From: an uncultured SAR86 cluster bacterium
GTDB taxonomy: Bacteria; Pseudomonadota; Gammaproteobacteria; Magnimaribacterales; D2472
Assembly: GCA_902517425.1 (NCBI GenBank)
Contig: CABYCI010000009.1
Coordinates: 1-35,052 of the forward strand
Direction: 5' to 3'
Length of the DNA stretch: 35,052 nt
In this document: one piece after another, positions 27,049-28,716 of the stretch
How positions within the stretch are numbered: position 1 is the first letter of the stretch
Layout: each line of letters begins with the position of its first letter
Notes under the pieces: model-generated
The model's input: only the letters and a program-made list of their open reading frames with translations
What the model was told of the DNA's origin: nothing
Database searches by the model: none
Position numbers and translations under genes: made by a program

Positions 27049-28716
27049 ATGAAAAATAAGAATAAACAATACCGAATTGAGAAAGGTGTTTTGATCTTTA
27101 CTCAACCACGATCGCCCTACTTTTATGGAAAATTAAGAGTTAATGGTAAATATATTACGCAATCTTTTGCTCCGATTGATGATTTTAATACTGCGAAAGA
27201 AAAAGTTTATCAGTGGCGTGAAGAGATATTAGGTATTGATAAGAATAACTTCTTACTTGCAGAAAAAGGTTCGGGATCAAACTATAGAAATGAATACATT
27301 GAACATGAAGAAATTGACAACGATTTCCAATTTCTTGAAGTGGGAAGATTTGATCCTGTAAAAAAATCAACTGAAGAGAGAAGAATAAGTTTTGTTGAAA
27401 TTTATGAGGAATACAATCAAGTTCAAGTATCTAATCAAGCTCATAGATGTCTGGATTGTGGGAATCCATATTGTGAATGGAAATGTCCAGTTCATAATTT
27501 TATTCCAGACTGGTTAAAACTTGTCAATGAAGGAAATATTATAGAAGCTGCTGAATTATGTCATTCTACAAACAGTTTGCCTGAGGTTTGTGGACGAGTA
27601 TGTCCCCAGGATAGGCTCTGTGAAGGTGCCTGTACCTTAAACGATGGTTTTGGTGCAGTGACTATTGGCTCAACCGAAAAATATATTACTGAAAAAGCTT
27701 TTGAAATGGGTTGGAAGCCAGATATGTCATATAGAACATGGACTGATAAAAAAGTTGCAATTATCGGAGCTGGTCCTGCTGGTATAGCTTGTGCTGACGT
27801 TCTTACCAGATCAGGCGTTCACAGCCATGTCTATGACAAAAATGAAGAAATTGGAGGACTTTTAACTTTTGGGATACCTGAATTTAAATTAGAAAAATCG
27901 GTTATTAAGAGAAGAAGGAAAATTTTAGAAGATATGGGTGTCAAATTTAACCTTGGTAGAGAAATTGGTAAAGATCTTCCTTTTAAAGAACTATATGAGG
28001 ATTACGATGCTGTCTTTCTTGCCATGGGAACATATACATCTCTTGAGGGTGGATTTAATGGAGAAAAACTAAAGGGAGTTCATAAAGCAATTGATTATTT
28101 AATATCTAGTACTAAAAAACTTTTAAGACTTCAAAAAAATAAAGCTGATTTTATTAACTTAAAGAATAAGAGAGTCGTTATTTTAGGTGGTGGTGATACA
28201 GCAATGGACTGCAATAGGACTGCTATTAGGCAAGGAGCGAAATCTGTTAAGTGTTTGTATAGAAGAGATGAAGAAAATATGCCTGGTTCAAGAAGAGAAG
28301 TGCAAAATGCAAAAGAAGAAGGAGTCCAATTCGAATTTAACATTCAACCTATTGATATTATTGGGAAAGATAAAGTCGAAGGAGTAAAGATAGTCAAAAC
28401 TCAATTAGGAGAACCTGATCAAAATGGAAGAAGAGTACCTATTCCAATTCCAGGATCAGAAACTATTTATGAAGCTGATGCGGTAATAGTTGCATTTGGT
28501 TTTAGAGCGAGTCCTGCAGATTGGTTTGGTGATTTTAATGTTAATACGCACAAAAATGGTTTAGTTGTTGCTGAAGAGCATCAAGAATTTCAGTTTCAAA
28601 CTTCAAATAAAAAGATATTTTCTGGTGGTGATATGGTTAGAGGTTCTGATCTTGTTGTTACTGCAATATGGGAAGGACGTGAAGCTGCCAAAAGTATAAT
28701 AAAATATGTTTCATGA
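27049..28716 (+). CDS. gltD: Glutamate synthase (NADPH) small subunit with integrase-like N-terminal extension
   Basis: FAD/NADPH subunit that feeds electrons to GltB. From about residue 92 ([12 protein letters not shown]) it follows normal GltD: two 4Fe-4S cysteine sets (C134, C137, C142, C146 and C181, C185, C191, C195), FAD site [15 protein letters not shown] site [12 protein letters not shown] and the C-terminal [13 protein letters not shown]. The total is 555 residues against about 472 in E. coli. The extra N-terminal part (about 7-63) reads [20 protein letters not shown], then GKYITQSF and an amphipathic helix [17 protein letters not shown]; this beta-beta-beta-helix pattern resembles the arm-binding domain of tyrosine integrases. 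Between the TTG at codon 15 and GTG at codon 98 there is no alternative start, so the extension appears genuinely in frame. Confidence 0.93.

Follow-up and report, generated by a model that had tools for sequence, protein, structure and literature searches.

To our knowledge, trigger enzymes are few and their origins are obscure. The DNA-binding domain of PutA, the trigger enzyme that acts as proline dehydrogenase in E. coli, is a ribbon-helix-helix. According to PMC8249747, PutA binds nowhere but in the spacer that separates its gene from the divergent one, and it resembles the GltD protein studied here in that a redox enzyme and a DNA-binding domain (predicted in the case of GltD) are joined; the SAR86 domain, unlike that of PutA, belongs to the integrase arm type, and several unrelated enzymes carry one. 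Of 1273 integrase genes beside tRNAs, 61.5% were predicted to be self-repressed and several of these cases were confirmed, according to the accessible extracts of PMC2951348. The same extracts describe intS of KplE1, the protein of which binds sites over its own promoter, and the fused enzymes, known here from sequence, can be likened to it, although the product of intS is an integrase and the product here is a host enzyme. As far as the extracts of PMC10516654 go, the SPbeta master repressor MrpR is a recombinase fold turned transcriptional regulator, which differs in that it has the overall recombinase fold, is no metabolic enzyme and represses a prophage. BzdR, in the portion of PMC3602430 available, has a DNA-binding domain joined to an enzyme-like domain, as in the fused GltD, but has lost enzyme activity, whereas the cluster cysteines and core enzyme motifs of GltD are conserved in the fused protein. 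The arm domains of the P4-like, HPI and HAI7 integrases (3rmp, 3jtz and 3ju0) are moderate matches to the GltD domain in modeled fold and share its N-terminal place; unlike in these integrases, no recombinase domain follows the GltD domain, its partner is a metabolic enzyme, and it matches no Pfam family. Literature searches found no publication on DUF6538 or on fused integrase arm-type domains, and searches on a SAR86 integrase-glutamate synthase or N-domain gene fusion gave nothing relevant, the lone match being on Pseudomonas by its title.

The window is the whole stretch of 35,052 nucleotides analysed here, which comes from contig C9 of a SAR86 genome (G000). The reading frame at 27049..28716 on the forward strand, identified from the open reading frame list and TIGR01318, encodes from an ATG start a GOGAT small subunit, GltD, of 555 aa with an N-terminal fusion. 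TIGR01318 (gltD_gamma_fam) scores 726 bits (cut-off 483) over residues 93-554, which places the protein among the GltDs, and because the match begins at residue 93, about 92 residues are extra; the initial annotation, which had counted about 90, was right on this point. The chain consists of a predicted arm-type DNA-binding domain at residues 1-62 (27049..27234; conserved part 4-60), recognized from profile matches, fold and selection, a weakly conserved linker at residues 63-92 (27235..27324; pN/pS 0.65 over residues 61-90), and the GltD core at residues 93-555 (27325..28713), to which Pfam and TIGR01318 assign the Fer4_20 and pyridine-nucleotide oxidoreductase domains, all on the forward strand. 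The protein is not a tyrosine recombinase, since no catalytic domain is present and the rest of the chain is GltD. The large-subunit gene gltB (22521..26990, reverse strand) is the divergent neighbor and a likely co-target, and the intergenic region extends over 26955..27048 on the assumption that gltB starts at 26954. The in-frame starts are ATG at codon 1, TTG at codon 15 and GTG at codon 98, just as the initial annotation had read them. An internal start at the GTG near 27340, a codon that is not conserved, was rejected for the family: in 33 of the 111 parsed f1 gltD loci (114 were tried; the search sets overlap, so these are not 111 distinct genomes), no ATG, GTG or TTG occurs between the N-domain and the core, in the stretch from about 20 residues into the N-domain up to 15 residues before the CxxCG of the core, and therefore an internal start cannot serve family f1.

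A survey of relatives covered 203 genomes of the SAR86 order, of which 107 belong to family f1 and 21 to f4. Profile A1, built for the domain, matched in 109 of them, namely 94 of the f1 genomes, 14 of the f4 genomes and one f3 genome, as tallied by hand from the result tables. In f1 the domain heads GltD and is found in all 10 sampled genera of that family. The remaining 13 f1 genomes gave no N-domain match, and G003 and G017, the two of these in which gltD was looked for, gave no gltD match either. In G104, G131, G134, G149 and G159, the N-domain is present and the gltD frame is short or broken (182-397 aa); in the G134 locus (L161), gltD and its neighbors are split into several frames, perhaps by assembly indels. 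Where this gene occurs in named records, these are assemblies of SAR86 or of unclassified gammaproteobacteria or proteobacteria. A GTDB scan kept 80 of 91 loci, of which 79 were labeled GltD by the script and one with masked bases (L122) was read as GltD; L154 and L155 are GltD as well, and L156 gave no motif. The pN/pS ratios of 18 sequences (codons 4-60, 0.19; core, 0.13; linker, 0.65) indicate that the N-domain is under purifying selection and, together with its recurrence in 94 of the 107 f1 genomes, that the extension is old and did not arise by mere chance in one sequence. Within it, KSF-P and an 11-residue string are nearly invariant, the conserved string spans 34 residues, and the first 58 residues carry a net charge of +6 to +10 in 18 GltDs. 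That the domain is a functionless relic of an accidental integrase fusion is thus very improbable, given this low ratio, the near-invariant string and KSF-P, and the presence of the domain in all sampled f1 genera, even though gene fusions of such a sort can arise by deletion.

Profile searches, the domain tree and fold comparison support kinship of GltD residues ~4-60 with the arm-type DNA-binding domain of tyrosine recombinases. Profile A2 matched in 14 of 369 sampled gammaproteobacterial genomes, two of them SAR86, and the other 12 genomes gave 13 places, 12 of which are integrases, so that by profile the N-domain is kin to integrase N-termini. Phage_integrase of Pfam is above its cut-off in 10 of these 13 places; L165 and L173 have integrase SAM domains above the cut-off with Phage_integrase just under it, and L172 is a 146-aa fragment with no Pfam match. 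Within SAR86, genome G043 encodes an integrase-like protein of 382 aa (L157) that begins with the domain and lies near a tRNA-Phe gene; it was found at E 7.7e-11 by a profile built without it. This protein has integrase SAM matches, one of them above the cut-off, and a catalytic part recognized by eye, with no Phage_integrase or NCBIfam match. In a domain tree of 57 rows and 73 columns, which has long branches, the L157 domain is sister to the GltD, PetA and IOR domains with support of 97/88, and the domains of f4 PetA, IOR and GltD group together at 88/85, while those of GltD-like proteins and IscS fall in one open clade; from this grouping, copying from one host gene to another is no less possible than repeated capture. 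Modeled alone, the domain has a mean pLDDT of 82 (block means of 90-93 over residues 11-60), and the model gives moderate matches to the arm domains of the P4-like, HPI and HAI7 integrases (Z 5.9, 5.6 and 5.2) and to AP2 domains (Z 4.7-4.9); the top match, above the integrase domains, is the inhibitory subunit of methane monooxygenase at Z 6.8, and all Z values are below 8. The integrase-arm kinship proposed in the initial annotation is thus upheld by the profiles, the tree and these fold matches, but its three strands before the helix are four in the model. Foldseek with the domain model found nothing at E <= 0.001. Residues 1-98 alone gave no credible match in Pfam (none), PHROGs (best E 0.18) or NCBIfam (best E 0.015), so that the GltD N-domain does not belong to DUF6538 (PF20172). 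Two matches at E 0.8 in a PDB sequence search were dismissed as chance, a scan of IMG/VR gave 37 pattern matches with zero confirmed, and a full-length GltD model was set aside for its pLDDT of 48.5.

Judged from sequence, short repeated sites lie upstream of most of the fused genes examined. Before gltD, the predicted operator TGTCATAC-TT-TGTCATAC (27016..27033, forward strand) is made of two direct repeats, 27016-27023 and 27026-27033, with a 10-bp period, and the general form of the site is TGTCATAC-NN-TGTCATAC. The pattern GTCATACTNNGTCATAC occurs in 91 of the 203 genomes, once in each, all in f1 and within ~60 bp of the gltD domain (positions compared by eye). The exact site is thereby held by 91 of the 94 domain-bearing f1 genomes, G098, G161 and G162 being without the exact form; the remaining 109 SAR86 genomes are all without it, and the reversed-pattern control gave 0. 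Among 82 distinct upstream sequences, 75 have the exact site, and the other seven are two one-base variants and five in which the ATG chosen by the script lies inside the site; mean column identity is 0.97 inside the site vs 0.57 outside. The site ends a median of 16 bp (3-37) before the ATG, a place that suits repression, and it resembles other sites of its own domain type only loosely, in an ACA core. Whereas gltB is divergent from fused gltD in 111/111 parsed f1 loci, unfused f4 gltD stands in tandem after gltB in 5/5 loci (gltB recognized by eye), so that fusion and a change of operon layout occur together. The earlier guess that the fused protein controls its own divergent promoter gains strong comparative support from this operator-like direct repeat, which lies in exactly that spacer.

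The same kind of domain heads the Rieske protein PetA in 14 of the 21 f4 genomes; 11 of these fusions are whole, those of G190 and G202 are cut by contig ends, and that of G198 is split, its domain and Rieske part being in different frames. The pattern TTGAACACN{4,26}GTTCAAA, whose sites are also given as TTGAACAC sites, occurs in exactly the 14 f4 genomes that have the domain, always before petA, and in 0/7 domain-less f4 genomes, six of which have an unfused petA and one of which gave no petA. It matches at two places per domain-bearing genome, in three of which the palindrome is also read on the opposite strand; the reversed control gave 3 matches. From rpsI to petA, the distance is 155-185 bp in 11/11 fused loci and 7-14 bp in 6/6 unfused loci, and none of the motifs was found upstream of unfused petA in 6/6 loci. 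The domain also heads indolepyruvate ferredoxin oxidoreductase (IOR) in G126 and G127, one fused gene being preceded by two TACACA words and the other by four; IOR is present in two more of the 26 genomes of that genus, without the domain in G122 and incomplete at the front in G124, and one unfused IOR upstream (L256) has zero TACACA and one GTAC. The PetA frames of G005 and G026 (L219 and L220) extend upstream to 261 aa without an integrase-like domain, perhaps as a stop-free leader.

DUF6538, a second kind of integrase N-domain, is found at the front of three proteins: PetA in nine of 10 g12 genomes (seven read, L212-L218); a GltD-like protein with Fer4 domains, an Fe-S flavoprotein, in genus g14 and families f2 and f3 (by hand count 58 frames of 671-714 aa, the start motif being in 31 loci, with families scanned for L224 and L268); and IscS in f3 (12 frames of matching size, four read and three scanned with Pfam). 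One f3 IscS, scanned with NCBIfam, matched TIGR02006 at 697 bits against a cut-off of 643, and in L263, L264, L270 and L271, the f3 iscS with its DUF6538 N-domain is followed by an IscU-like gene, with no iscR upstream in the stretches read. DUF6538 scores above its cut-off in one of three g12 PetA proteins, two of two GltD-like proteins and the SAR86 integrase L235, and under it in three of three IscS. It also heads a protein of 149-210 aa in many f1 genomes; the six that were read all end in a hydrophobic helix. In the genome of the window itself, such a stand-alone protein of 162 aa is encoded at L258:895-1380 (C1:81424), with a DUF6538-like domain at 23.4 bits under the cut-off of 27, a long linker and a C-terminal hydrophobic helix; AGTAC repeats lie upstream, its start, ATGAGTACA, holds such a word, and it is perhaps a membrane-tethered DNA-binding protein.

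Upstream of the DUF6538-fused genes, the mean number of GTAC per 200 bp is 2.25-3.71 vs 0.26-0.59 in the remaining windows of these loci, and at least two GTAC are present before 7/7 PetA, 22/30 GltD-like, 4/4 IscS and 6/6 small-protein genes, against a background of two GTAC in 3.6% of 6233 windows; the other eight GltD-like upstreams, all of genus g14, have a single GTAC. Without preselection, the commonest iterated words per family are GTCATA, GTTCAA and ATACAC, with a GTAC-containing word in all four DUF6538 families. For each upstream sequence, the 6-mer iterated most often is unremarkable save for f4 petA, and the single unfused petA row in this test also reached 4 (AGAAAG); the strength of the sites lies in conservation and co-occurrence. 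The pattern GGTACATGTACC occurs in 29 of the 203 genomes, 26 of them f2, with the reversed pattern in one genome, and by coordinates read by hand it precedes the DUF6538-GltD-like gene in 20 of the 29. Of eight other places considered for a wider regulon, seven lie inside frames of at least 364 aa and one (L288) between two frames, and no second target is claimed. Upstream of integrases, L157 has TTAACACA repeats and L173 has TTACACA repeats (by eye), and the DUF6538 integrase L235 has two GGTACATT sites around TATAAT; L177, L178, L265 and L266 gave no comparably clear pair by eye. The motifs were first spotted by eye and then tested, the genome-wide counts for gltD and f4 petA being the strongest test; most genomes are incomplete, and because the orthologues are related, the counts are not independent.

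These repeats could instead be operators of a separate transcription factor, the N-domain doing something else, since 10-bp direct repeats suit many regulators and binding by the N-domain is predicted. This reading is unlikely: no second exact copy of the gltD site occurs in any of the 203 genomes, so that there is neither a regulon nor a site at a regulator's own gene, while the petA sites track the domain (14/14 vs 0/7 within one genus), the sites differ from one domain kind to the next, and integrases have sites like those of the fused genes that share their domain kind. A module for protein-protein contact, such as a tag for docking to the Fe-S assembly machinery, would suit the partners found, because the enzymes, from five protein families, are all Fe-S proteins or IscS, and IscS itself carries such a domain. 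It would also suit the f4 PetA domain, which precedes the Tat signal and from this topology should presumably remain in the cytoplasm, where clusters are inserted. Such a module leaves the paired upstream sites unexplained, however, and the domain is basic and of integrase kinship; it is accordingly less favored than DNA binding and appears quite improbable.

The fusion, the homology and the conservation are observed, as is the occurrence of the gltD and f4 petA sites at fused genes alone, and captured integrase self-repressor modules have probably made these enzymes PutA-like self-regulators. In the proposed mechanism, the captured arm-type N-domain would still bind DNA, and a pair of GltD molecules could grip the tandem repeat between gltB and gltD to repress gltD and probably also gltB, so that GltD would be a working enzyme and the controller of its own gene, as PutA is. 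The unit of promoter, arm sites and N-domain was probably taken from an int gene, with the first int codons fused to the host gene; a deletion joining the int start to a host gene would bring promoter, operator and domain in one step. Such units were probably acquired more than once in SAR86, by several captures or by copying from one host gene to another, and in every case found the recipient is an Fe-S enzyme or IscS. Most likely the state of the protein itself would be the signal: GltD outside the GltB complex or without clusters would repress, and the assembled holoenzyme would not. That the partners are Fe-S enzymes favors maturation or redox state, but for GltD and PetA a feedback from subunits left unassembled would fit as well.

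A search for IscR-like genes succeeded in 29/36 f1 and 5/8 f2 genomes, with all matches under the curated cut-off, and in 0/8 f3 and 0/8 f4 genomes; f4 is without IscR, yet no IscS fusion was seen there. In the f2 genome G045 (L289:1-2460), the DUF6538-fused GltD-like gene and iscR-iscS are transcribed divergently from a spacer that contains GGTACATGTACC, and the product of the fused gene may also control the isc operon. A wider reading, conceivable though with somewhat less than an even chance, is that SAR86 has a home-grown Fe-S control in which each Fe-S protein would report its own maturation or assembly state to its own promoter, replacing a central regulator, with integrase N-domains and arm sites captured and copied before GltD, PetA (twice, with two domain kinds), IOR, the GltD-like flavoprotein whose gene diverges from iscR, and, in a family that gave no IscR, IscS. 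Integrases as candidate donors, unfused orthologues within one genus as acceptors, and the product of domain plus operator are visible side by side, and the event recurs. This may represent a route by which mobile elements give hosts self-regulating enzymes and offers a direct test of the origins of enzyme-regulators, and it suggests how ocean bacteria with streamlined genomes could keep costly Fe-S enzymes under control while lacking a central regulator.
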